Source of the DNA: a virus
IMG/VR virus record: IMGVR_UViG_3300048837_000230
Location: 1 to 45,311 of that record
Strand: one strand, 5' to 3'
DNA: 45,311 nt
The position numbers were made by a program, and so were the translations under genes. Below the pieces are notes generated by a model, which saw only the letters and a program-made list of their open reading frames with translations, was not told the origin of the DNA and made no database searches. Shown here piece after piece: positions 2,249 through 33,851 of this stretch (its first letter is position 1; each line of letters starts with the position of its first letter).

Positions 2249-3502
2249 TCAATTATCCTTCTTCGCTCTTGGCCTGTACCCGTCGAACGTTTTTTCAAGC
2301 AGCCGTGATTTGACCATCAACTGCAAGATGCGCTCGACGGAGTGGGAAGCGACTTTGTTCTGCAAGTACTCGATCAGGGCCGCTTCCGACAACGCTTCGC
2401 CCTTCTTCATGTACATTTTGTAGGCCCAATAATATGTATCTTCGATGGCCTTTGCATCGCCTCCGATGGACATGGACTTGAAGATGTCAGGCATGAAGCT
2501 TTCAGCCTCGAACAGCCAGCCGAGGGCACGGTGGTAATCATCGAGAGTAATGATCATGTCATTGGATCGTGAAACGGAAGCAATCATACACAACTTGAGG
2601 ATATGTGCGGATCGCCTGGTTCCATAATGTTGCAACTTTGGGTGGTCGGGCTTGGGTGGGCCACCGGCCTGGTGCCAAGCGTCAATTGCTTTCGCGGCCT
2701 CAAGCTGAAATGTAAACCTACCCATCAGCGATCCGATTGACTTCAAGTCTTCGATGAGGTTCTTCTTCGTCAACTCCGGTGCGTCAATGATGTCGAAGAG
2801 GGAACGGATGGTCATTTCGCCTGAATGAATTAGAATGGTGCGCGAGAGGAAACCGTGGTCCCACGCCTGCTCCGGCATCGTATCGTGCAGGTACGCGACG
2901 GTGGTGGCGCAGAACAAATTCAACTGCGGATTGTCCATTGTGTTGTTGATGTCCTTGGACCGTTTCTTTTCCCGATACTGCTTACCGTCGTAAAGATCCG
3001 TCAAGGTCGCCATAAACTCAGTATCGTACATTGGAAGAAATACTCCCATCTCGTTCTGGATCACCGCCAAGGAATGAAAGGTCTTGACTGGTGACGATGA
3101 CTTGGGGTCGATGACCTTTCGTTCGGCCTCCATCAGAGCGTCGATCAACGAAGCGCGACTGACCGAGGACGGTGCGATGAAGTGCGACGAAAGGTTAGAA
3201 ATAAAATCATGTACTGTTGAAGTAATGATTGTCTTTCCAACTCCGGGCGGCGCGATGACCATGATGTAGAGGTTGGGATAAAGTTCCCCGATATTAGTCC
3301 GAAGCCAGACCTTCCGCTCAAGTGCCATCGCAATGGTAGCGATTGCGCCCCACTTCTTGAAGACCTCAGGCGAAGGAAAACCCGAAGTGTACTCAACAAA
3401 CGTATCTACCCAATCAGCGACGTGACGAGGCTTTACAGCAGCAGGCTGCTCAATGAGCGACGCGAGCCCCTTTGACGTTTGCGCTGGTCGCTTCCCTTCC
3501 AT
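2249..3502 (-). CDS. P-loop ATPase, putative replicative helicase (DUF3987-like)
   Basis: This 417-residue protein has a Walker A motif, A-P-P-G-V-G-K-T, at residues 84-91 and a following segment with V-I-Q-N-E-M-G in the position of a Walker B/sensor strand. The layout (about 80 residues before the P-loop, then the motor, then a C-terminal helical domain ending in basic residues) resembles the DUF3987-type ATPases found beside phage DNA polymerases, which are thought to act as replicative helicases. It lies directly downstream of the polymerase and overlaps its 3' end by 70 bases. No separate DnaB- or T7 gp4-type helicase or primase was found, so this is the best candidate for the replicative motor. 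Helicase activity is inferred, not shown by motif. Confidence 0.65.
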   Translation of the reverse strand: MEGKRPAQTSKGLASLIEQPAAVKPRHVADWVDTFVEYTSGFPSPEVFKKWGAIATIAMALERKVWLRTNIGELYPNLYIMVIAPPGVGKTIITSTVHDFISNLSSHFIAPSSVSRASLIDALMEAERKVIDPKSSSPVKTFHSLAVIQNEMGVFLPMYDTEFMATLTDLYDGKQYREKKRSKDINNTMDNPQLNLFCATTVAYLHDTMPEQAWDHGFLSRTILIHSGEMTIRSLFDIIDAPELTKKNLIEDLKSIGSLMGRFTFQLEAAKAIDAWHQAGGPPKPDHPKLQHYGTRRSAHILKLCMIASVSRSNDMIITLDDYHRALGWLFEAESFMPDIFKSMSIGGDAKAIEDTYYWAYKMYMKKGEALSEAALIEYLQNKVASHSVERILQLMVKSRLLEKTFDGYRPRAKKDN

Positions 3503-4953
3503 TTCATCAATCCATCTTCGTTGCCGGTGAGGTTGCCCTGCTTATCGTGTTCTGTGTCGCCCCAATTCCAACCGACCTTGGCGTCGACGGGGACAACATA
3601 CTCGCGACCTCGTGCGAGGGTCAAAGGCACGCGAAGCTTCTCCATCGCCAAGGGGATGATGGACTCTTCTTGGTCCTCGGGGTACTGGAAGAGGATGGAG
3701 TCGTGGACCTGGACGAGAAGTTCGACCTTCTGAGTGCGGAACAAGTTCAACATGCCGGTGTTGATTTGGTCCCCTGTCATGGACTGCGGCGCATAGGCAA
3801 TGGCTGCGCGGAGCGTCGCGTCATCGTTGTGCCTGCCCCAGAAGAAACGCCTGCGTCCCATTAAGGTCGTGATCTGGCCGTCGTACTTGAGCATATGCTT
3901 GACGCGTTCATGCCAGGACTTTATGCAAGGATAACCTGCAAAATATCGTTTCTGAAAATCCTCGATCAGGCGCACGGCAGTCTTGGTGTGCATAGCCATC
4001 GTACGCGGGGTGCCGTAGTAATTCGTACCGTGACCTAACTTTTTCGCAAGCTGTCTGTAAGAGTCTTGTCGATAAGCGAGTTGGTCAGCAATTGCGCGAT
4101 CTCCCTTAGGAGTGCCGGGCCAGGGAAGCTCGGTCCATGCAAGTTTACATGTTGTAGTGTGCAAGTCACCTGACTCACATGCATCGAGGAAGCATCCGGC
4201 GTAATCTGCCCCTTGATCCTCAATGAAATAATTCCAACAAAGGGCACCGACATTTCTTGCATCCGCTTGCTCCAAATCGAGGTTGCCGAACTTCATGCCG
4301 GGGTCAGCGATGAAGACTGAACGTAATTCACGGTCGATGTTTTGCAGGTTCCGGCCGGTGCCCATATCGGACATGGCGGACGCGAGGCGCCCGGTGTTGG
4401 TCCCTGCAATGTTGAACGAAGTCCGCATTCGCCCGTCAGGATCAATACCTGTCTCGAGAAGTTGTCGCTTCTTGTCGAGATCACGGATCAACAGGAGGCG
4501 CTCACAGATGGGCTCGGCTACCATGTAGTTGGATAATTTTTCCAATGCTTCACGATCGACGGTTGGCGCATAGGCACCTTGGGCGTTACGTTTCTTAATG
4601 GGATTGAGGCCGAGGACTTCGTAGAACAGATGCTTTAACTGCGCGGGAGAGGCCCAATTGACTGACATACCGATGCCTTCCTCAGCGAAGGCGTTGAGCT
4701 GTTCGGTCAGGAACTTGATGTCGGACTTGTACTGTGTCAGGACTTCGTCCCGCCGCTCCCGATCGACGCGAAGTCCTCGCATGTTCATTTCCAAGATTGG
4801 GCCTTGGAGGGATTTGGAAAATTCGTAGGTTGGACGAGCCACGTCATCAAGCTGCGCGAGCAAGTTGTGCACGATTTCGAGAGTCACACATACGTCAAGT
4901 CCGTTATAGACCCAATCGTTTTCGTCCTGGGTCAAGGTCGTCGTTGGTGCCAA
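3433..4953 (-). CDS. DNA polymerase family A, C-terminal half (Exo III and polymerase domain)
   Basis: This half carries the polymerase active site. Motif A is D-L-E-Q-A-D-A-R, the O-helix region is R-Q-L-A-K-K-L-G-H-G-T-N-Y-Y-G, and motif C is L-V-Q-V-H-D-S. Near its N-terminus, W-V-Y-N-G-L-D matches the Exo III (Y-x-x-x-D) motif of the 3'-5' exonuclease, whose Exo I and Exo II lie in the gene at 5791-6795. Between the halves stand an HNH gene and a DUF1937 gene. Starts are uncertain: the frame is open from 5079, but TTG at 4953 or 4935 are the first candidates after the DUF1937 stop, neither with a strong ribosome site. The next ATG (in M-N-M-R-G-L-R) would remove Exo III. Splicing or trans-assembly would be needed for proofreading. 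Confidence 0.85.
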   Translation of the reverse strand: MAPTTTLTQDENDWVYNGLDVCVTLEIVHNLLAQLDDVARPTYEFSKSLQGPILEMNMRGLRVDRERRDEVLTQYKSDIKFLTEQLNAFAEEGIGMSVNWASPAQLKHLFYEVLGLNPIKKRNAQGAYAPTVDREALEKLSNYMVAEPICERLLLIRDLDKKRQLLETGIDPDGRMRTSFNIAGTNTGRLASAMSDMGTGRNLQNIDRELRSVFIADPGMKFGNLDLEQADARNVGALCWNYFIEDQGADYAGCFLDACESGDLHTTTCKLAWTELPWPGTPKGDRAIADQLAYRQDSYRQLAKKLGHGTNYYGTPRTMAMHTKTAVRLIEDFQKRYFAGYPCIKSWHERVKHMLKYDGQITTLMGRRRFFWGRHNDDATLRAAIAYAPQSMTGDQINTGMLNLFRTQKVELLVQVHDSILFQYPEDQEESIIPLAMEKLRVPLTLARGREYVVPVDAKVGWNWGDTEHDKQGNLTGNEDGLMKWKGSDQRKRQRGSRRSLSSLLL

Positions 4954-4963
4954 AGTATGAGTT

Positions 4964-5302
4964 TCAATTATTCGCACAGTGTGCCTCAAGGTGATCAATC
5001 GGGATTTGGAGGGCCTCGGCCATTGAAATTTCCCACTGAACTCCGCGCGAAGTGTCCCAACCCGGGAGACGTAAGACAACCAAGCGCGAGGACATACGGA
5101 GAAAAGTAGCGTTCAACCCCTGCCAAAAACCAGCATCACGTGGAAAGTCGGCCTTGACCGCCATCTCGTGACAGTAAACGATGGGAGAAAAGACGACGAT
5201 GTTCTGCTTGAGCATGTGAATAGTCAGACGCTCAACTGCGTTGAAACGATCCTGCATGATGGCAGGATTTTCATGGGTGTAGGGGGACGCGACATATATC
5301 AC
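4964..5302 (-). CDS. DUF1937 protein, nucleoside 2-deoxyribosyltransferase-like fold
   Basis: This 112-residue protein begins V-I-Y-V-A-S-P-Y-T-H and contains V-V-F-S-P-I, F-W-Q-G-L-N and V-L-R-L-P-G-W-D-T-S-R-G-V with Q-W-E-I-S-M-A-E-A. These are the signatures of DUF1937, a small relative of nucleoside deoxyribosyltransferases found in phages and suspected to act on nucleotides. The GTG start has GGAGA eight bases upstream and lies 4 bases after the HNH stop, so the two genes form a unit. The unit sits between the halves of the DNA polymerase. A longer reading from 5395 overlaps the HNH gene and is not supported. The reaction is not established. Confidence 0.8.
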   Translation of the reverse strand: MIYVASPYTHENPAIMQDRFNAVERLTIHMLKQNIVVFSPIVYCHEMAVKADFPRDAGFWQGLNATFLRMSSRLVVLRLPGWDTSRGVQWEISMAEALQIPIDHLEAHCANN

Positions 5303-5306
5303 TGTA

Positions 5307-5786
5307 TTATCTCCGTCTATTTTGAGCTTGCTCTTTACGTGTTGCCCATTTGCAATTTCCGGGTTCATAGTTCCCGTTGTTGTCAATGCGCTCAATGGTT
5401 AGCCCCGGAGGACAATCTCCCATATCACGATAAAAGTTTTCAAACTCACGCCACTCGTGGCACACAGTAATGCCGCGCCCACCGTAATTGTGATAACCTA
5501 TTTGAGTAGGATTAAAACAACGGTTAATCATGTGATGCCAGGAACTGTATGTTAAAGTCATCTTACCACGCCGGGCATGACCGTGTTTAGTTCTGACTTC
5601 TTGTTTGTAACATCCGCAACTAACAGATTTACCTGATTGTAAATTTGCTCTAGGTATAATCCGCAATGATCCACAGGTACACTCACAATTATATTGCAAA
5701 TGTCCTATGGGTGTTTTGTATTTGCTTAGGCTAAGGACTTTCCATCGTCCGAAGATTTGGCCAGATAAATCTTTGAATGTCCCCAC
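5307..5786 (-). CDS. HNH homing-type endonuclease
   Basis: The 159-residue product has an N-terminal module with C-x-C-x-C (residues 34-38) and C-G-C (57-59), possibly a zinc ribbon. Its nuclease core at about 131-149 ([19 protein letters not shown]) is the familiar H-N-H phage nuclease signature. The GTG start at 5786 is set by AGGAGG, which overlaps the last codons of the upstream polymerase half (K-K-E-D-stop). Such enzymes nick or cut DNA and spread by homing. Its position inside a conserved replication gene is typical, but no group I intron core fits in the few bases on either side. Confidence 0.88.
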
Positions 5787-5790
5787 GACG

Positions 5791-6795
5791 TTAATCCTCC
5801 TTTTTAGTGGTCCCGACCTTTTGTCTGCCCATGAACTTCCACGCCGCCTCGTCGGAATAGACGGAACCCAAGAACGCGAGGCCCTTTTCCATTTCCGGTT
5901 GCAGGGCATGGTGGAGGAGCATGGTGTCCTCGCCACGCTCTGCTGCCAAGCATGGTATGCCGTAGTTGCGCCAAAGGTGGTGCATGTCGTACAGACCATT
6001 CTGAAACACTGCCTTCTTTGGAAGCGCACACATGCGCTTGACCCAACGCCAAGCGGCGATCTCCTCGGCGGCGGTCTTCCAGTACAAAGCGCGGTTGGCT
6101 TTGATGAAGGGGATGACCAAACCGATGTGTGGAGTCGGGGCGAAGCCGACGCAAGTTATGAGCCGCCCCGAGGTTTCAATGTCGATGGACAGAAATTCCG
6201 ACGGTAGAATATGTTCTTGCTCGAAACGAGCAAGATCGAGAAGGTCCGGTTCAATCCATACCTGACGAACAGGTCGGCGTACATCGGGGTACTCCATTTC
6301 CCGTCGCAGCTTTGAGAGGTCAGCGAGGAATATGGGGCGGAGTTTCCACTCTTTGAAGATGGCGGAGGGGTGGTAGGTTGGGATGACCTTGCGGCCACCG
6401 ATGGCGGGAAGGCCAGGCAAAGCAGTACCACGCATATTCTTGAGACCGGAGTTACCAGTTGTGGCCCACAGGGCGGTGGCGCCGAGGGCGAGAATGCAGG
6501 TCGGGTTGACATCATTGATCTCCTTATGAAGTCGGGCCAGGTCAGAAGCGTAACGCCGAGGTAAGTACTTGCCAGACATGAGCGCGGTCGTGCCTGGGAT
6601 GGCGTCGACCTTTGGACCTAACTTGAATTTGATGTCCCCTACGTAGTCAGAGAATAACGTCGTAAGCCTCGCCTCGGCGATGCTGATACCAAACTGTGCG
6701 AGGGAATTTTTAAGAAGATAACCAGGGGCACCGGTAAAGATTTGTCCTCTGTCGATGTCATCTTTGGACGGAGCGTCCCCGATTATCATTAGCAT
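5791..6795 (-). CDS. UDG-like domain plus 3'-5' exonuclease, N-terminal half of DNA polymerase
   Basis: The 334-residue product has two modules. Residues 1 to about 165 resemble family 4/5 uracil-DNA glycosylases: I-I-G-D-A-P-S at the start, [17 protein letters not shown] and T-Y-H-P-S. Residues about 195-320 are a DEDD exonuclease with Exo I S-I-D-I-E-T-S-G and Exo [12 protein letters not shown]. The last acidic residue (Exo III, Y-x-x-x-D) is encoded in the next polymerase fragment at 3433-4953. Fusions of a UDG-like domain to phage PolA are known; here the fusion stops at K-K-E-D, where the codons double as a ribosome site for the HNH gene. A dispersed palindrome lies just upstream of the start. 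Confidence 0.87.
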
Positions 6796-10081: not shown

Positions 10082-11917
10082 TTAACGAGGGATGAGCGGA
10101 TCCCAAACCCAACCAGGTTTGAAATCAGCTTTCAGAAACAAGTTTCGAACTTCGGGGGACTTAGAGCAGACATGTCGAAACTCACAACCACCATAGTTCC
10201 CACACGAGGCCGGGTTCATGGGAAACCGAGCTTCGCGGACTGCATTGTTGATGCGATGAAGCCAGTCCAAGGTGTCGTCGTACCACTCATCGAGTTGGGC
10301 CTCGGTACGGAATGAAAAACCGCGCTCGAAGCGGGTGAAACCGACCGCGATCTGCGCACCGTCGATCACGACGCCCTTGACAGGTATGTCGAAGATGGCC
10401 TTTCCCGCGAACGTGTAGAGGCTCATCTGCGTGTCGGGTGAGAACTGGTCGAAGAACCTGGGCGTGATGGTGGAACCAGTGGTGTTGTGAGTTACGATGT
10501 AGTTCTCGGTGACGTAGAGTTGACGAGGGGCGGACACTTTGAGACAGGCGGCTTCCTCGGTATAGGGAAGTTTGACAACTCGCTTGATGTAGCGAGAGCC
10601 AACACCATTGCCCCACTCCGGCATACGAAGGTGCGCGCGGAAAGCGTTCCCGCTGCGAGAGTGGTAGCGAGCCATACCTCCCAGTGAACGGACAAGCTGG
10701 CAAATGTCCTTTACAAGCTGTTCGCTGGTGGAGTCGTAAAGCCAGTTGGTTCCGAGGTTGTGGCCGTCCGTTTCGAGAAGGCCACGGAGTAAGGCACGGC
10801 GTTGTGACTCATCGGCAACAAGGTAGCTTTCTGGGATGAACTTTCCGCCTGAAAGCTTCCCAAACAAGCCGAGTTGTTGCAGCGCACGTTTAGTTTCGCC
10901 TCCGGAAATTATCCAAGTGTAGTTGGCTGAGGCAGATTTTTTGATCTTATCGCCTGCCGGAAGAACGGCGGCAAGCATAGCTGCTTCATGTCCGTCAGCG
11001 TCTGAAAACTGGATGCTGCTACCAGCTAGATAGCCGTCACCAAGGAGCAAGCCGAGGGCAAGTGGGGAAAGTGGAAGATCTGCCGTTGGGTGCTGGATCG
11101 GAGCGACCAGAGGAACCCGAAACTTTTTGTGCTTTGGGGCGGTTGCCATATCCTGCATTGACAAGACTGAATACTTTCCAAACTGATCGTAAACCCCCCA
11201 CAAGTGGTCCCAAGCGCAGCGAGTGCTGGTGCCATCAACAAAGTGGACCTCGAAGATTTCGACTTCTCCTTTCGGAATAATGTCGGTGACGCTGTGCCAG
11301 CCACCATCAACTCCGACAACGAGGGCGCCAACGGCGAGGGAACCGAGTTGGCGCCAACCCCCAGGTGTGAGAATGTTTTCCGAAAGCGGCTGGGCTTTCT
11401 GATCCATCACATATACGTCACCACTGATTTCACACAAACGGTCAATGTGCCCGCAGAGGATGAACCCATCATCGACTTCGAGTTTGAATGAGTACTCAAC
11501 GGCTGCTGTGCCGTCTGCGAGAATGACCGTCTTTGTGTGCTCGTCCTCGAACGTATCGACGTACCAGATAATTGAGCGGATCAAGGTATCGCGAGTCTTG
11601 GCGTTGTCCATGGAGTCCCAGGGCTTACCAATCGGAACGCCATCGCGAGAGCCGACGATTTCCCATGTCGCCTTGAGGGTCTCCCAAACGACTTCGATCA
11701 GGGCGTCCTCGCGGGAGAGGCCCAAGGCGACGTGTTTGTGGAAATGTTCGAGCGCGGTAGCGTAATGCCCGCCGAACAGGAGGTGCACGGACTTGCGATG
11801 CGGTTCCCATCCCTCGATATGTTTGTACTGAAAATAACGAAAGCACTTCTGCGCATTCTTGATCATGGTTGAGTCAAAGGCGAAGAAGGTTCCGTCTTCG
11901 TTTCGGTTGCTGGTCAT
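10082..11917 (-). CDS. RecB/Cas4-family PD-(D/E)XK nuclease interrupted by an intein
   Basis: The 611-residue precursor contains a nuclease split by an in-frame intein (residues 175-478). The exteins together give about 307 residues. They hold G-H-I-D-R (Asp159), M-D-Q-K joined to T-T-G after splicing (the D-x-K-T motif, Asp172 and Lys174), and four cysteines, C25 near the start and C572, C578, C584 at the end. That arrangement is typical of 4Fe-4S nucleases of the AddB/Cas4 type, which resect DNA ends. Because the intein separates the catalytic Lys from the following Thr, the unspliced protein should be inactive. The gene is joined to its neighbours by 4-base overlap upstream and 11-base spacing downstream. 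Confidence 0.9.
   Translation of the reverse strand: MTSNRNEDGTFFAFDSTMIKNAQKCFRYFQYKHIEGWEPHRKSVHLLFGGHYATALEHFHKHVALGLSREDALIEVVWETLKATWEIVGSRDGVPIGKPWDSMDNAKTRDTLIRSIIWYVDTFEDEHTKTVILADGTAAVEYSFKLEVDDGFILCGHIDRLCEISGDVYVMDQKAQPLSENILTPGGWRQLGSLAVGALVVGVDGGWHSVTDIIPKGEVEIFEVHFVDGTSTRCAWDHLWGVYDQFGKYSVLSMQDMATAPKHKKFRVPLVAPIQHPTADLPLSPLALGLLLGDGYLAGSSIQFSDADGHEAAMLAAVLPAGDKIKKSASANYTWIISGGETKRALQQLGLFGKLSGGKFIPESYLVADESQRRALLRGLLETDGHNLGTNWLYDSTSEQLVKDICQLVRSLGGMARYHSRSGNAFRAHLRMPEWGNGVGSRYIKRVVKLPYTEEAACLKVSAPRQLYVTENYIVTHNTTGSTITPRFFDQFSPDTQMSLYTFAGKAIFDIPVKGVVIDGAQIAVGFTRFERGFSFRTEAQLDEWYDDTLDWLHRINNAVREARFPMNPASCGNYGGCEFRHVCSKSPEVRNLFLKADFKPGWVWDPLIPR
10484..11395 (-). other. Intein with Class 3 signature and LAGLIDADG homing nuclease
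   Basis: The 304-residue segment begins with Ala175 (A-Q-P-L-S-E-N-I-L-T-P-G-G-W), not Cys or Ser, and ends T-H-N478 before Thr479. The block B histidine (H238) is followed at +2 by W240 (position B:12), block F has C458 (A-A-C-L-K-V, position F:4), and T476 precedes the final His-Asn (position G:5). Non-nucleophilic residue 1, the W-C-T triplet and Thr+1 are the published hallmarks of Class 3 inteins, in which the block F Cys starts splicing. Two LAGLIDADG-like helices (L-G-L-L-L-G-D-G-Y at 288-296, L-L-R-G-L-L-E-T-D-G at 376-385) show a homing endonuclease domain, so it may still move. Confidence 0.9.
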
Positions 11918-23833: not shown

Positions 23834-26086
23834 ATGGTAACAATCGTTACACGCGCCGGGAAAGGCGAACGCCTCACCCACAATGAGGTCGATGCGAACT
23901 TTACGAACTTGCAGGAAGCAATCGAGGCAACCACGCCCGAGGCCTTTGGCGCAGCCGGAGATGGCACGACGGACGACACCGAGGCGGTCAATAGCGCGCT
24001 CGCTGCCCTTCGTGCCGCTGGCGATAGCGAAACCGATACTTATGGTAAGTCGGTGTCCCTGGACGGGAAGCGTTACAAAGTCACTGGCCCGCTCAACATG
24101 ACGAATTTGCGGAGTGGGTACGGATCGCGGTTCGGTGACGGCGCAATAGTGTCTGACGCGACTTCGGGCATCGTCCTCGACATGACGGACACATATCGGT
24201 CCCTGGTGCAGAACCTCACAATCAGCACCTACGGCACGAATGACTATACGGACACTGGCCCTGCTGTTGGCATTCTGCAACAGCGTCCGTCCAATGGCCG
24301 CGTGTCCGGCAACAACTGGTTCAACAACGTGAACGTCGTCGGCGTGTTCGATTATGCGGCGCTGATGAACTATGCCTCGGAAGCCTGCGAATATACCGGG
24401 CTGTTCCTGCAAAACCGCAAGCGCAGCGAGGATGCGGCGGCGCTGTGGATTCAGCGCACATCGGACAATGTGAACTCATCCGGCGTTGAAATCGCTTCAT
24501 CGTTTACAACCAATGCCACCGGGGCAGAGTCCAATATTCGCGCCCTGTTCACAAGCCTCGTTGCAAATCGCAGCTATTCGACTGACTGGACAATCACGGC
24601 AATCAGCAAGGCCAACCCTGCGGTATTCACCTATTCGGTGGGATCGGCTGGCATTGCGCCAGAAGTCGGTGATGTCGTCGTGATTGCAAAAGTTACCGAA
24701 ACCGGCACTGCAACCGTGACATGGGCTTCGGTAATCAAGGATTACGTTTTTACGATTGCCGCAGTGACGCCAGCCACGGCCATCACTGGCACATTCACGC
24801 TTACAGGCGTTGATACGTCTGCCGTTACCACCGACTATACCGCGAGCTCGGCAACTGTTTTCTATCGCACAGGCCCCGGCATCCGCCTTGTTCACCGTGA
24901 CCGTCTGCAGATCGAGCATTTCTATGTCGCCACCTATGGCTCGCATGGTGTCGAAATCGCCTTTGGCGGTAATCCGTATCGGTTCCTGAAACTCCACGGC
25001 CACGTTGAAGGCGGGGCGCTGCAGGCGTGGGCCAAGTTCGTCTGCGGGCCTTCCGGCGACCGCATCCTGCAAGTCTACGACCTTGATGTGTTGGAGCACG
25101 CCTCGCACATCAATGAGGACTTCTTCACGACCAACGCCACGACCGGGCGTGTTGAACTTTATCGGCCAAAGATTGTCATTGAAAGCATCCGTGCCGACAA
25201 TGGCCCCGGTGAGCCGACCGTAACGCTGCGCGGCAATATTTTTGATGACCCGTCAAAGTTCTATCTCTATGACGCAGACATCGTGATTGGTGACTCCGGC
25301 TACATGAACCCCGTCGCAGACTTTGGGCATTTCTCAGGCCGTATTCACTACCTTGATACGGACGAGGTTGTCGTCGTCCCGCGCCGCGTTCATGTCGAGG
25401 CTTCGACACTCAAGTACTACGACGACTTCGACCAGTGGAGCCTTGCCCCGTACTGGAATACCCGCCTTGGCACTGACGGTTCGTGCGCTGCTGCACTTAC
25501 AAGTACCTCATCGCGCGGCGGGCGTCTGCTCATTGCATCCGGTGCTGACGCGGCGGGGACTTTCGCGGCGAACGGTGTTCAGGTCCATGGCAGGGCCATC
25601 CATCGGGCCGAGGCCGGGCCTATTGATGTCGAGTTTGGCTGTCGGCCAGTTTCGAACACCGCAAACATGGCTTACTTCGTAGGACTTACAGACGAAGACC
25701 AGGCCCTTGAAATGCCTGCGGTGCTGGACACTCTCGATGTTATGATCGCGACCGCTTCTAACTTCGTCGGGTTTTTGTTCGATACTGCCGCCGATGCCCC
25801 GCAAGAGTTCTGGCACGCTGTTTCAAAGAAATCTACCGGGACAGAGCAAAAGCTGAACCTGAACCTCGCACCGACACTGTTCGTAGCCGCTCAGACCACT
25901 CGAATGCGTATCATTGTCAATGACGATGGTGATGCTGACTTTTACATGGACGGCGTACTTGTTGCGTCCTTTACCAACGCGGTGGCTACAACTGAAACGC
26001 TTTGCCCCATCGTTGCGGTGTTCTCTCGCGCGGCAACGTCAAGGAAGTTCTCTGTTGACCATTTCCAAATCTTTGGGTGGAAGTAA
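23834..26086 (+). CDS. Tailspike, beta-helix with pectate-lyase-like fold
   Basis: The 750-residue protein has a short virion-anchor N-terminus (V-T-I-V-T-R-A-G-K-G-E-R-L-T-H-N-E-V-D-A-N-F), then T-P-E-A-F-G-A-A-G-D-G-T-T-D-D-T (about 36-51), the signature that opens pectate-lyase-like beta-helix tailspikes. A module at about 252-342 (I-T-A-I-S-K-A-N-P-A-V) resembles an FCCH-type domain also present in tail tube protein B. A C-terminal region of about 200 residues looks like a lectin/LamG-type jelly roll ending F-Q-I-F-G-W-K. It likely binds and degrades host surface polysaccharide. The enzymatic residues were not identified. Confidence 0.85.
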   Translation: MVTIVTRAGKGERLTHNEVDANFTNLQEAIEATTPEAFGAAGDGTTDDTEAVNSALAALRAAGDSETDTYGKSVSLDGKRYKVTGPLNMTNLRSGYGSRFGDGAIVSDATSGIVLDMTDTYRSLVQNLTISTYGTNDYTDTGPAVGILQQRPSNGRVSGNNWFNNVNVVGVFDYAALMNYASEACEYTGLFLQNRKRSEDAAALWIQRTSDNVNSSGVEIASSFTTNATGAESNIRALFTSLVANRSYSTDWTITAISKANPAVFTYSVGSAGIAPEVGDVVVIAKVTETGTATVTWASVIKDYVFTIAAVTPATAITGTFTLTGVDTSAVTTDYTASSATVFYRTGPGIRLVHRDRLQIEHFYVATYGSHGVEIAFGGNPYRFLKLHGHVEGGALQAWAKFVCGPSGDRILQVYDLDVLEHASHINEDFFTTNATTGRVELYRPKIVIESIRADNGPGEPTVTLRGNIFDDPSKFYLYDADIVIGDSGYMNPVADFGHFSGRIHYLDTDEVVVVPRRVHVEASTLKYYDDFDQWSLAPYWNTRLGTDGSCAAALTSTSSRGGRLLIASGADAAGTFAANGVQVHGRAIHRAEAGPIDVEFGCRPVSNTANMAYFVGLTDEDQALEMPAVLDTLDVMIATASNFVGFLFDTAADAPQEFWHAVSKKSTGTEQKLNLNLAPTLFVAAQTTRMRIIVNDDGDADFYMDGVLVASFTNAVATTETLCPIVAVFSRAATSRKFSVDHFQIFGWK

Positions 26087-26259
26087 TGCCGCAACCGACC
26101 TCATACACCACTTGCGCCTATTGGAATGATGGCTACGCCGAGGGCGACTCGGATTGTTACGGTGCCATCGAGGACCTTTACCGCCCGCGTGTAAACAAAG
26201 ACGCCTTCTGGCGTGCCGTTCGCGCGCGGGAGATGCGGGATAGAGATTATCGTAACTGA
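26086..26259 (+). CDS. Hypothetical small protein
   Basis: The 57-residue product M-P-Q-P-T-S-Y-T-T-C-A-Y-W-N-D-G-Y-A-E-G is aromatic-rich in its first part and Arg-rich at its end. Its ATG overlaps the tailspike stop (TAATG). Function unknown; possibly a spike-associated or chaperone protein. Confidence 0.55.
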   Translation: MPQPTSYTTCAYWNDGYAEGDSDCYGAIEDLYRPRVNKDAFWRAVRAREMRDRDYRN

Positions 26260-26273
26260 AAGGAATAAAGTAA

Positions 26274-26585
26274 ATGGCAACCACAACTGTCACGTTTGGC
26301 CGTATCGCAAAAGACTTTCCTGCGCTCATCGCGTCGAGTATGGTCAGTGAAACAATCACCCCGACTTCGTCTAATCAACAGACCACTGCGGTGGCCCCAA
26401 CAGACGCACTCAAAAACGGTGACATAGTCGCCAACGTGGCAACCGACGTACAGGTTTACGTAGCCTTCGGTACTAACCCCAATGCGTTGACCGGGACAGG
26501 TACGCGGAAAATGCTTCCTGCCGGTAGTGATGTTTACTTTGTCGTAAATGGGGGTGACGAGTGTGCCGTCACACTGGCACCATAA
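26274..26585 (+). CDS. Small beta-rich virion protein
   Basis: The 103-residue product is Thr/Val/Ala-rich with short strands (D-I-V-A-N-V-A-T-D-V-Q-V-Y-V-A-F-G) and one late strand (S-D-V-Y-F-V-V-N-G-G-D-E). Proteins like this are frequent small structural parts in podophages. CTGAAAGGAATAAAG is the ribosome site. Its stop overlaps the next start. Exact role is inferred. Confidence 0.55.
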   Translation: MATTTVTFGRIAKDFPALIASSMVSETITPTSSNQQTTAVAPTDALKNGDIVANVATDVQVYVAFGTNPNALTGTGTRKMLPAGSDVYFVVNGGDECAVTLAP

Positions 26586-27280
26586 TGTTGCGGCGCATAG
26601 GCGAGTTATTTGGTCGGAGTGGGCGGGCTAACTTTACCCCACAATGGTTTCCCTACACCGGCGCGTCGATGCATCTCGATTTCGTCAACCGGCGCTATTA
26701 CTGGAATGGCGCCAGCCGCGGCGAAGGCGATTTCTCGGCTTTCTCGGGCGGCAGCTTCGGCACCGGCGACGCCAAGGGGTTCATCCCCGCCGTTGATGCC
26801 TCGCACAATGTCAAGATCGCATGGGCTGATCTCGGTATCTCGGCGCCATTCTGCATGGTCAGCGTTTCCCGGCCCACGTCCATCGGGGCGAACATGCACG
26901 TTCTCCGGATATGGACGAGTGAAAGCGACTATCTCAACCATTATATCCCAGCAGCAGGTACTGCCAGGTCGCTAGTGCATTTTGGAGGGGTTCGCCAGGC
27001 AGATTTGGTTGGCCCTACGTTGTCCGCCAACACTGTTTATTCCTGGGCATCAAACATCGAGACAAACTCAATCCTCGCCAGCGTCAACGGCGCCAACGCC
27101 GGGACCGCCGATACCGCCGCCACCCTTCCCGCCATCACCGAACTTGTCGTCGGCCACAATGGTACCAACGCGGTGCCGTTCCTCGGTTCGATCCGGCACC
27201 TCATGCTGTTCACCGGCTCGCGTAACCAGACCGCGCTCAACGCTTTGACCACCGCGGTTCATGCCGCTTATGGAGGATGA
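26585..27280 (+). CDS. Tail protein with LamG/lectin-like fold
   Basis: The 231-residue product contains S-M-H-L-D-F-V-N-R-R-Y-Y-W-N-G near its start, a motif that opens concanavalin/LamG-like domains of phage structural proteins, and L-G-S-I-R-H-L-M-L-F-T at the end of the fold. It follows the tailspike, so host-glycan binding is plausible. TAATG overlap with the previous gene sets the start at 26585. Confidence 0.68.
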   Translation: MLRRIGELFGRSGRANFTPQWFPYTGASMHLDFVNRRYYWNGASRGEGDFSAFSGGSFGTGDAKGFIPAVDASHNVKIAWADLGISAPFCMVSVSRPTSIGANMHVLRIWTSESDYLNHYIPAAGTARSLVHFGGVRQADLVGPTLSANTVYSWASNIETNSILASVNGANAGTADTAATLPAITELVVGHNGTNAVPFLGSIRHLMLFTGSRNQTALNALTTAVHAAYGG

Positions 27281-27286
27281 TTCACG

Positions 27287-27415
27287 ATGGCGATGTCTCC
27301 CCGACCATTCCCGCTCGTGCAGGGGTCTGCGCCTTGCGTCAAAACACGTTGTCGGGGGAACCGGCAGTATTGCGATATGTACGCGGGCATTATTCCCCCA
27401 TACATACCCGGTTGA
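27287..27415 (+). CDS. Possible 42-residue ORF containing palindrome copy 5
   Basis: ATG 27287 follows GGAGGATGATTCAC and opens a frame of 42 residues (M-A-M-S-P-R-P-F-P-L...), whose end C-D-M-Y-A-G-I-I-P-P-Y-I-P-G is encoded by the palindrome. The sequence before is basic and Cys-rich. It may be untranslated leader; the ribosome site and the palindrome frame are the only support. Confidence 0.3.
   Translation: MAMSPRPFPLVQGSAPCVKTRCRGNRQYCDMYAGIIPPYIPG
27374..27408. repeat. Dispersed palindrome, copy 5
   Basis: GATATGTACGCGGGCA is followed by TTATTCCC and CCATACATACC. It lies between the lectin-like tail gene and the small terminase gene, and ends three bases before a TTGACT box. Confidence 0.85.
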
Positions 27416-27440
27416 CTTTCCCGGCAATCTGTTGTAAGTA
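27412..27440 (+). promoter_or_regulatory. Weak candidate promoter before the terminase genes
   Basis: TTGACT (27412-27417), 17 bases, TAAGTA (27435-27440). The -10 match is poor and would put the start of transcription almost on the terminase ATG. It is listed because palindrome copy 4 shows the same palindrome-TTGAC arrangement. Confidence 0.3.
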
Positions 27441-27446
27441 AAAAGC

Positions 27447-28031
27447 ATGGAACTCGGATTAGAAATTCTTAAAACGCACGGCAGGGTCGAACAGGATCTT
27501 GACCCTGTTGTAGTCCGCCCGCTTGAAGCGACCGACCTCGCCAAGCTTTCAACTGAACGTGGGGTGCAAAAGCCCAAGCAATTGTCGAGTCTGTCGCGAT
27601 TGTCCGAGCGCCACCGGACCTTGGCCCGGCTCCTTGCTTGTGGCAAGTCAGCGGGAGAGATCTCCGCTATCACCGGCTACACTGAGTCACGCATTTCCAT
27701 CCTCCAGTCCGATCCGGCGATGAAAAACCTGATCCGGCATTATGCCGAAGAGGTTGACATCGTTTTTACTCAAACAAATGAAAAGTTGGCCCAGGTCGCA
27801 TCGACGGCACTCGACATCATTCAGGATCGACTTGAAGACGACGAGACTGTGGATAAGATGTCTGTCGCACAGTTACTTGAGGTCGTCAAGACCGCAGCCG
27901 ATCGTTCGGGCAACGGCCCCTCGACGACGCAGCAGGTCAACGTCACCGTCGGGATCGCCGATCGGCTCGAGGCCGCGCGCAAGCGCATGCTCCAGTCCAA
28001 GCTGATTGAAGCCAAAGCGGTCGAGGTCTAA
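27447..28031 (+). CDS. Terminase small subunit
   Basis: The 194-residue product has a helix-turn-helix-like stretch (G-K-S-A-G-E-I-S-A-I-T-G-Y-T-E-S-R-I-S-I-L at about 67-87), then a long helical region. It lies directly upstream of the large terminase, with the large-subunit GTG one base after its stop. Small terminases recognise the packaging start on the DNA. The ribosome site is weak. Confidence 0.8.
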   Translation: MELGLEILKTHGRVEQDLDPVVVRPLEATDLAKLSTERGVQKPKQLSSLSRLSERHRTLARLLACGKSAGEISAITGYTESRISILQSDPAMKNLIRHYAEEVDIVFTQTNEKLAQVASTALDIIQDRLEDDETVDKMSVAQLLEVVKTAADRSGNGPSTTQQVNVTVGIADRLEAARKRMLQSKLIEAKAVEV

Positions 28032-32361: not shown

Positions 32362-33360
32362 ATGACGACACTCTCTGTAACCAATCCTACCCTTCTCGAT
32401 CTGGCCAAGATGCTCGATCCTGACGGGAAGGTGGCCACGATCGTTGAGCTCCTCAACGAAACGAACGAAATCCTCGATGACATGACTTGGCTGGAGGGGA
32501 ACCTCCCGACCGGCCATCGCACGACGATCCGTACTGGTATCCCCGAACCGACATGGCGTAAGCTCTATGGTGGCGTCCAGCCAAACAAGGGTACGACCGT
32601 GCAGGTAACGGACTCCTGCGGCATGATGGAGGCGTATGCCGAAGTCGATAAGGCCCTCGCGGACCTGAACGGTGCCACTTCGGCGTTCCGCTTGTCTGAG
32701 GACCGCGTTCATCTTGAAGGCATGAACCAGTCCCTCGCGGACGCCCTCTTCTACGCCTCGGAAACAACGACCCCGGAGAAGTTCACCGGCCTGGCGCCGA
32801 GGTACAACTCAACATCGGCAGCCAACGGCGAGAACATCATCAAGGGCGGCTCGTCCGACACTGACAACACTTCGATTTGGCTCGTAGTGTGGGGTCCGCA
32901 GACAGTCCACGGTATCATCCCGAAGGGCTCGAAGGCTGGCTTCCAGATGACTGACAAGGGTGTGGTCACGATCGAGTCCGTCGATGGGGCAGGTGGCCGG
33001 ATGGAGGCATATCGGACGCACTACCGCTGGGATGCTGGCCTTTCGGTCCGCGACTGGCGCTACATCGTCCGTATCCCGAACATCGAGAAGTCTGCGCTGA
33101 CGAAGGCAGCTTCCGCCGGTGCCGACCTTATCGACCTCATGACGCAGGCGATCGAAATGATCCCCTCGTTGTCGATGGGGCGCCCGGTCTTCTACTGCAG
33201 CCGCACGATCCGTTCGTTCTTGCGTCGGCAGATCATGAACAAGACTGTGAACTCGACCCTGTCGATGGACTCAGTCGCCGGTAAGAAGGTTGTCACCTTC
33301 GACGGCATCCCCGTTCGCCGCTGCGATGCCCTCGCCGCTGACGAAGCCCTCGTATCGTAA
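32362..33360 (+). CDS. Major capsid protein
   Basis: The 332-residue product fits the Bordetella BPP-1 type capsid family: T-N-P-T-L-L-D-L-A-K, G-N-L-P-T-G-H-R-T-T-I-R-T-G-I-P, R-Y-I-V-R-I-P-N-I, and a C-terminal G-I-P-V-R-R-C-D-A. It follows the scaffold by 10 bases and precedes the cement protein. Confidence 0.9.
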   Translation: MTTLSVTNPTLLDLAKMLDPDGKVATIVELLNETNEILDDMTWLEGNLPTGHRTTIRTGIPEPTWRKLYGGVQPNKGTTVQVTDSCGMMEAYAEVDKALADLNGATSAFRLSEDRVHLEGMNQSLADALFYASETTTPEKFTGLAPRYNSTSAANGENIIKGGSSDTDNTSIWLVVWGPQTVHGIIPKGSKAGFQMTDKGVVTIESVDGAGGRMEAYRTHYRWDAGLSVRDWRYIVRIPNIEKSALTKAASAGADLIDLMTQAIEMIPSLSMGRPVFYCSRTIRSFLRRQIMNKTVNSTLSMDSVAGKKVVTFDGIPVRRCDALAADEALVS

Positions 33361-33371
33361 GGAGTACGACA

Positions 33372-33851
33372 ATGATCCTCGATGAACGACTTGAGTTTGC
33401 TGATGCCGTGTCCGTGGTCGGAAGCGCTGCCGCCGTGGCGGTCCTCGGTGATGTGATCGACCTCGGTGCCGCCTCGCGCAACATTGGTCTGGGCGAAGAC
33501 GTGTGGTTCGTGATGACCACTGACACGGAAGTGATCACTGGCGGCACCGCCGGCTCGATCACTTTCGATCTTGTCAGTGACTCACTCGCCACCCTTGGCA
33601 CGGCCACAGTCGCTAATTGCACTGTGCACCACACCACCGGCGCACTGGTTACCGACGACGCAGCGGCCAATGATGCCAAGCTGAACGCAGGGGGCGTGAT
33701 TTGCGCCATCCGCCTTCCGGCCGGAACCTACGAGCGTTACCTCGGCGTCCTGTTCACAATCACCACAACCGACACCACTGCCGGCAAGGTGAACGCGTTC
33801 CTGACGAAGGACTACGCGAAGTGGTCTGCCTACGCCGACGCCACGAACTAA
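33372..33851 (+). CDS. Bbp16-family capsid cement protein
   Basis: The 159-residue product is beta-rich and contains M-I-L-D-E-R-L-E-F-A-D-A, L-G-D-V-I-D-L-G-A, and R-L-P-A-G-T-Y-E-R-Y-L-G-V, the pattern of Bbp16-type cement proteins that stabilise capsids. It lies directly after the major capsid gene with AAGGAG upstream. Confidence 0.82.
   Translation: MILDERLEFADAVSVVGSAAAVAVLGDVIDLGAASRNIGLGEDVWFVMTTDTEVITGGTAGSITFDLVSDSLATLGTATVANCTVHHTTGALVTDDAAANDAKLNAGGVICAIRLPAGTYERYLGVLFTITTTDTTAGKVNAFLTKDYAKWSAYADATN

Follow-up and report, generated by a model that had tools for sequence, protein, structure and literature searches.

A family A phage DNA polymerase encoded in two pieces and divided within its proofreading site

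Gene layout of the locus

We analyzed the complete virus record IMGVR_UViG_3300048837_000230, a stretch of 45,311 nucleotides (nt) referred to below as the window (45.3 kb); all numbering follows window positions unless another locus is named. On the minus strand of the window, a family A DNA polymerase is encoded by two genes, which are separated by a gene for an HNH endonuclease and a gene for a DUF1937 protein (Table 1). The four genes are tightly packed. The first encodes a UDG-like domain together with the exonuclease motifs Exo I and Exo II, and the last encodes Exo III together with the PolA domain. The product of the first gene (N chain) matches PF03167 (UDG-like, 2.3e-13) and phrog_17 (DNA polymerase). 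Its catalytic residues are D205 and E207 in Exo I and D270 in Exo II, and its stop codon is the TAA at 5793-5791. The product of the last gene (C chain) matches PF00476 (3.8e-37) and carries Exo III as Y24-N-G-L-D28, counted from GTG 4977. By profile match, Y24 of the C chain is aligned with chain index 174 (Tyr497) of the Klenow structure 1kln. The PF00476 match, polymerase motifs A and C, Exo I-III and a Klenow-like fold (the latter taken from a relative, locus L037, discussed below) identify the enzyme as a family A polymerase. As in a split phage replicative polymerase, the two genes jointly hold every polymerase and exonuclease motif. The most likely start of the C chain is GTG 4977, which lies inside the end of the DUF1937 gene (14-nt overlap) and is aligned with the ATG starts of relatives. 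A plausible Shine-Dalgarno sequence, GGAG with an 8-nt spacer, also precedes the DUF1937 start.

A preliminary description of this DNA had placed the break between Exo II and Exo III, with Exo I and Exo II in the N-terminal fragment and Exo III and the polymerase motifs in the C-terminal one, and had seen no room for a typical group I or II intron core in the gap. Both statements are borne out. The GTG of the HNH gene (5786) lies 4 nt past the N-chain stop, another 4 nt separate the HNH stop from the DUF1937 GTG (5302), and the DUF1937 stop (4966-4964) is about 38 nt away from the conserved ENDWVYNGLD stretch (within about 40 in that description). The same description regarded the HNH and DUF1937 genes as a pair that interrupts the polymerase. 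Of this view, the two separately translated chains and the homing-type gene in the gap stand, while the pair as the cause of the break does not, as detailed below.

Table 1. Features of the split polymerase locus in the window (Shine-Dalgarno sites are predicted from sequence)
Feature	Position	Strand	Remarks
Polymerase N chain: UDG-like domain, Exo I (DIE), Exo II (NGLYD)	5791..6795	-	334 aa; C-terminal end ..TTKKED, then stop
Shine-Dalgarno site AAGGAGG for HNH	5796..5802	-	Within the final N-chain codons; 9-nt spacer to HNH GTG
HNH endonuclease, phrog_374	5307..5786	-	159 aa; GTG start; late insertion, GC 42.7%
DUF1937, nucleoside 2-deoxyribosyltransferase-like	4964..5302	-	112 aa; GTG start; usual gap occupant in relatives
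Shine-Dalgarno site GAGG of the C chain	4984..4987	-	Within DUF1937; 6-nt spacer
Polymerase C chain: Exo III (YNGLD), family A polymerase domain	3433..4977	-	514 aa from the most likely start, GTG 4977
DUF3987/primase-like gene	2249..3502	-	Downstream of the C chain; same downstream place in relatives

Distribution and age of the break

Viral contigs and species genomes were scanned with the C chain, and about 80 best loci were picked by C-chain similarity (denoted L with a number). Junction ends were placed by local profile searches, and the alignment was anchored on single-chain relatives. The same break at the same loop is present in 78 further loci, both metagenomic and phage, whose C chains are 36-72% identical to that of the window (79 loci with the window). 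In all of the about 80 loci the N chain ends and the C chain starts at one same point. An assembly error, which the preliminary description had named as a possible refutation of its view, is contradicted by these 78 loci, and the window itself holds no second copy of any of the parts.

To date the break, we used a quick maximum-likelihood tree of 104 polymerases, of which 79 have this break, 19 are single-chain and 6 are broken elsewhere. The 79 fall on one side of a single branch (Shimodaira-Hasegawa-like approximate likelihood ratio test, SH-aLRT, 100), apart from the single-chain relatives, and the grouping remains unchanged once columns at the junction and long outgroup branches are left out. 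Since family A polymerases are ordinarily single-chain, the simplest reading of the tree is one ancient fission in the ancestor of the clade, with no re-fusion seen. The C chains also have in common a new leader (M-[KR]-I-I-x-T as consensus) that the single-chain relatives do not have. Together, the N tail and the C leader amount to about 19 residues beyond the intact linker.

The same polymerase family is broken at other points as well, so that at least three places are affected. In L117 (679-3383) and L123 (4995-7666), an insert of about 290 bp with an HNH_3 gene lies between the UDG-like domain and the exonuclease-polymerase part of an otherwise single-chain polymerase. L102 and L104 are uninterrupted at this site at about 87-89% DNA identity, and the comparison identifies L117 and L123 as a recent homing-gene fission at another point. 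A further group, comprising L094 (3956-7090), L114 (4935-7592), L119 (3464-6241) and L125 (4986-8364), is broken just after the NLQN motif and before motif A, with small unknown open reading frames (ORFs) or a methyltransferase-like gene in the gap. This arrangement resembles the one reported for the OM43 phages MEP401 and MEP402 (PMC10580990). Because homing genes break this polymerase elsewhere (L117/L123), the ancient break may likewise stem from a homing gene that has since been lost. Separately, the polymerase frame of L122 (4980-6284) is continuous except for one in-frame stop within the UDG-like region, which is either a sequencing error or a real stop.

Contents of the gap and the HNH gene

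The gap between the two halves is variable in both content and length. Of the 79 loci, about 62 carry a DUF1937 or DUF7768 gene ahead of the C chain. The DUF7768 gene, found in the gap of 19 loci, is kin to DUF1937 by profile comparison (E value 2.8e-6). Some gaps hold MazG-like or methyltransferase-like genes, and that of Caulobacter phage Kuura holds two unrelated small unknown genes. Two loci have no insert at all: in L090 the stop and start codons overlap, and in L037 the TAA is immediately followed by ATG. At the other extreme, about 5 kb with tail-type genes lies between the N chain (32658-33662) and the C chain (about 26036-27571) of L081 (contig record G001), where the DUF1937 gene is still directly before the C chain. 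Turnover of the gap is fast, as seen in L054, L057, L063, L067, L088, L047 and L078, which involve HNH, methyltransferase-like, MazG-like and DUF1937/DUF7768 genes; the nucleotide-enzyme type alone accounts for at least 17 changes on the tree. In L058 (246-1713 and 3026-4537), the N chain and an HNH gene are opposite in strand to the C chain, reflecting either a real inversion or an assembly artefact. In view of a possible assembly inversion, this N chain was kept out of the main evidence.

These gaps bear on whether the chains might be rejoined into one polypeptide by an intron, an intein, ribosome bypass or a frameshift. Phage polymerase genes with group I introns have been described (the SPO1-type and Bastille cases cited in PMC10580990), but we consider rejoining here very improbable. 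Rfam scans, run without a positive control, gave no intron either in window positions 4800-5950 at E<=10 or in 14 related loci at gathering thresholds. Moreover, gap size varies between an overlap of the two genes and about 5 kb containing unrelated genes, stop, start and Shine-Dalgarno sequences are present for both chains, and the tails and leaders lengthen the intact linker. In L081, no splicing or ribosome hop is needed because the tail-type genes part the N chain from DUF1937 and the C chain. As for particular candidates, a group I or II intron was rejected as these scans gave no catalytic RNA core and the intergenic spaces are 4 nt long. An intein was rejected because stop codons and separate starts leave no continuous frame; no intein family match was found either.

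The HNH gene of the window differs from its surroundings. Its GC content is 42.7% compared to 54.4% for the window, and at third codon positions 37% compared to about 64% in the polymerase chains; only 0.2% of segments of the same size in the genome are as AT-rich. Thus, the HNH gene is foreign in base composition, whereas both polymerase chains match the genome. Comparison with relatives, which the preliminary description had proposed for defining the insertion ends, gives an insert of about 485 bp that extends exactly from the N-chain stop to the DUF1937 start, where relatives have a few bases. The gene matches the HNH family phrog_374 (2.8e-61) and has kin scattered over 1121 phage records, and both the match and this distribution are those of a phage HNH homing endonuclease. 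Its best kin in viral contigs are 38-65% identical over the matched part. The window's HNH gene was found in none of 17 long relative records, and its family lies between same-strand halves in none of the 78 further loci. None of the 80 viral-contig kin retrieved adjoins this polymerase, and a conserved cassette of HNH and DUF1937 was rejected on this ground. On these sequence data, the window's HNH gene is a recent insertion rather than the cause of the break.

Other HNH genes occupy the same N-chain stop in L054, L057 and L063 (phrog_99 type) and in L058 (phrog_3377/374 type). Together with the window they correspond to at least 5 changes on the tree, suggesting that HNH genes arrived at this stop repeatedly and independently, about five times. 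In L054 the N-chain stop and the HNH start form TAATGA, the same overlap as that reported for T4 mobE (PMC2988022). The HNH enzyme of the window would presumably cut a nearby conserved polymerase sequence. Another AT-rich segment of the window, a 112-aa ORF region at 1960-2298 on the minus strand (GC about 42%), resembles the HNH gene in this respect and is possibly another recent arrival.

It could still be argued that the break arose when the HNH gene, together with DUF1937, entered a polymerase that was still intact, as mobE did in nrdA of phage Aeh1. Indeed, an HNH gene is present in the gap, the polymerase is in two ORFs with an endonuclease gene between them, and the mechanism occurs in this family (L117/L123 versus L102/L104). 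However, an uninterrupted gene in relatives without the endonuclease, another mark of the Aeh1 arrangement, is not what we found. L002, L003, L004 and L009 are split with DUF1937 alone in the gap, and L090, L037 and Kuura are split as well. All close relatives lack the HNH gene but share the break, its termini and the leader, and on this ground the pair was rejected as its cause. Taking also the foreign composition of the HNH gene into account, we give this explanation hardly any credence, and the two genes cannot be viewed as the causal pair of the preliminary description.

A side observation concerns a different part of the window (10082-11917, minus strand). A 611-aa protein encoded there has an N-terminal part assigned to an exonuclease family and is also related to primase, helicase-loader and terminase-type ATPases, an apparent fusion.

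Two chains and a proposed proofreading site in trans

The catalytic residues in both genes have been conserved over a long time (78-79 of 79 loci). The Exo I Asp and Glu are kept in all 78 readable loci, while the Exo II Asp, the Exo III Tyr and Asp, and polymerase motifs A and C are each kept in 79 of 79. Nearly all loci of sufficient length to show both chains have kept them together. To examine the fold, we modeled the read-through polypeptide of L037 with AlphaFold2, treating the TAA between the halves as a residue. The model (predicted template modeling score, pTM, 0.80; mean predicted local distance difference test, pLDDT, 86) has E. coli Pol I/Klenow as its best PDB matches (TM-score 0.74 by target). 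Its pLDDT drops below 50 in only three stretches, namely the break (310-318), a region near the N terminus (14-17) and the C terminus. The model thus shows the break in what is predicted to be a flexible loop.

One alternative is that the two genes no longer cooperate: the C chain would be a polymerase that lacks proofreading, and the N chain would have a separate role in uracil recognition or as a nuclease. Each chain does have its own gene, and in L081 the two are about 5 kb apart. Yet the Exo III residues, which are useless without Exo I and Exo II, are fully retained, those of Exo I and Exo II are kept in 78-79 of 79 loci, and the two chains have nearly always stayed together. We therefore regard this alternative as quite unlikely and suggest that selection kept a proofreading site built from two genes.

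The reading we favor, with a probability of about 0.8, is a family A polymerase that stably consists of two chains and has its proofreading site assembled in trans, with a gap that collects homing and nucleotide-metabolism genes. The locus would then be an operon for a permanently bipartite enzyme, one chain contributing the UDG-like domain along with Exo I/II and the second contributing Exo III along with the polymerase domain. A single message would be translated into both chains from separate starts, each with a Shine-Dalgarno sequence, and non-covalent assembly would complete the 3'-5' exonuclease site in trans from D205, E207 and D270 of one chain and Y24 and D28 of the other. A single break in the ancestor of a large phage clade would have fallen in the surface loop between the post-Exo II helix and the Exo III helix. 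The gap would since have served as a landing place, usually retaining a DUF1937/DUF7768 nucleotide-enzyme gene immediately ahead of the C chain and repeatedly receiving homing HNH genes at the stop of the N chain, of which that of this phage is the latest arrival. The data show the gene layout, the ancient break on a single branch, the late arrival of the HNH gene, the conservation of the catalytic residues and the fold of the L037 read-through chain; chain assembly, activity, proofreading in trans and a homing gene as maker of the first break are what they lead us to infer.

Several points weigh against this interpretation. Most loci are metagenomic contigs, and in L058 the inversion of the N chain may stem from the assembly. 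The tree is a quick maximum-likelihood tree, rooted by the argument that family A polymerases are normally single-chain, and its loci were selected by C-chain similarity. The AlphaFold2 model joins the chains covalently and hence speaks for compatibility only, without proving assembly. The correlation of N- and C-chain distances is moderate (r 0.71), and shared ancestry alone would give as much. Finally, the chain pair is known here from sequences and the model of one relative. A further possibility, which we consider doubtful, is that the clade-wide two-subunit polymerase with proofreading in trans also has the DUF1937/DUF7768 protein as a working partner, either a third subunit or a nucleotide-pool enzyme, encoded between the two chains, apparently translationally coupled and retained so as to be made together with the C chain.

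Split phage polymerases are known. The closest in kind is gene 43 of the T4-like Aeromonas phages 25 and 44RR, a replicative polymerase in two genes whose 43A and 43B chains are reported to co-purify with polymerase activity, and in which, according to a review, a seg endonuclease may have come as a later guest to a gene that was split beforehand (PMC2988022). That enzyme is a family B polymerase in T4-like phages, whereas here a family A polymerase has a UDG-like domain and a break that crosses the exonuclease site. By polymerase family the closest is MEP401, which like MEP402 has a split family A polymerase; PolA is in two ORFs with a small ORF between them in most of a phage group, and the authors suspected an intron (PMC10580990). 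The preliminary description had named Aeh1 nrdA/mobE, in which an HNH homing gene lies between the halves of an essential enzyme reported to work as separate chains (PMC2988022), as the closest parallel. There, the insertion is taken as the cause of the break, while here the break is older than the HNH gene, and HNH and DUF1937 do not form a unit; therefore, gene 43 is the closer case. T4 topoisomerase gene 60 with mobA likewise associates a homing gene with a split enzyme gene (PMC2988022), but it is another enzyme, and its break distinguishes T4 from related phages instead of being clade-wide.

Our search of an open-access library turned up no account of a polymerase broken between Exo II and Exo III, nor of clade-wide retention of such a break, and a keyword search of this literature gave no paper on DUF1937 in phages. 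The paper describing phage Kuura does not mention the split polymerase. The break point, its age and its clade-wide retention thus appear to be undescribed. The locus also illustrates that a homing gene between two halves of a gene is no proof that the homing gene made the break. What emerges is an apparently undescribed, clade-wide replicative polymerase in two pieces, cut through its proofreading site, which makes it possible to compare how subunits would build an exonuclease active site with the related single-chain enzymes.
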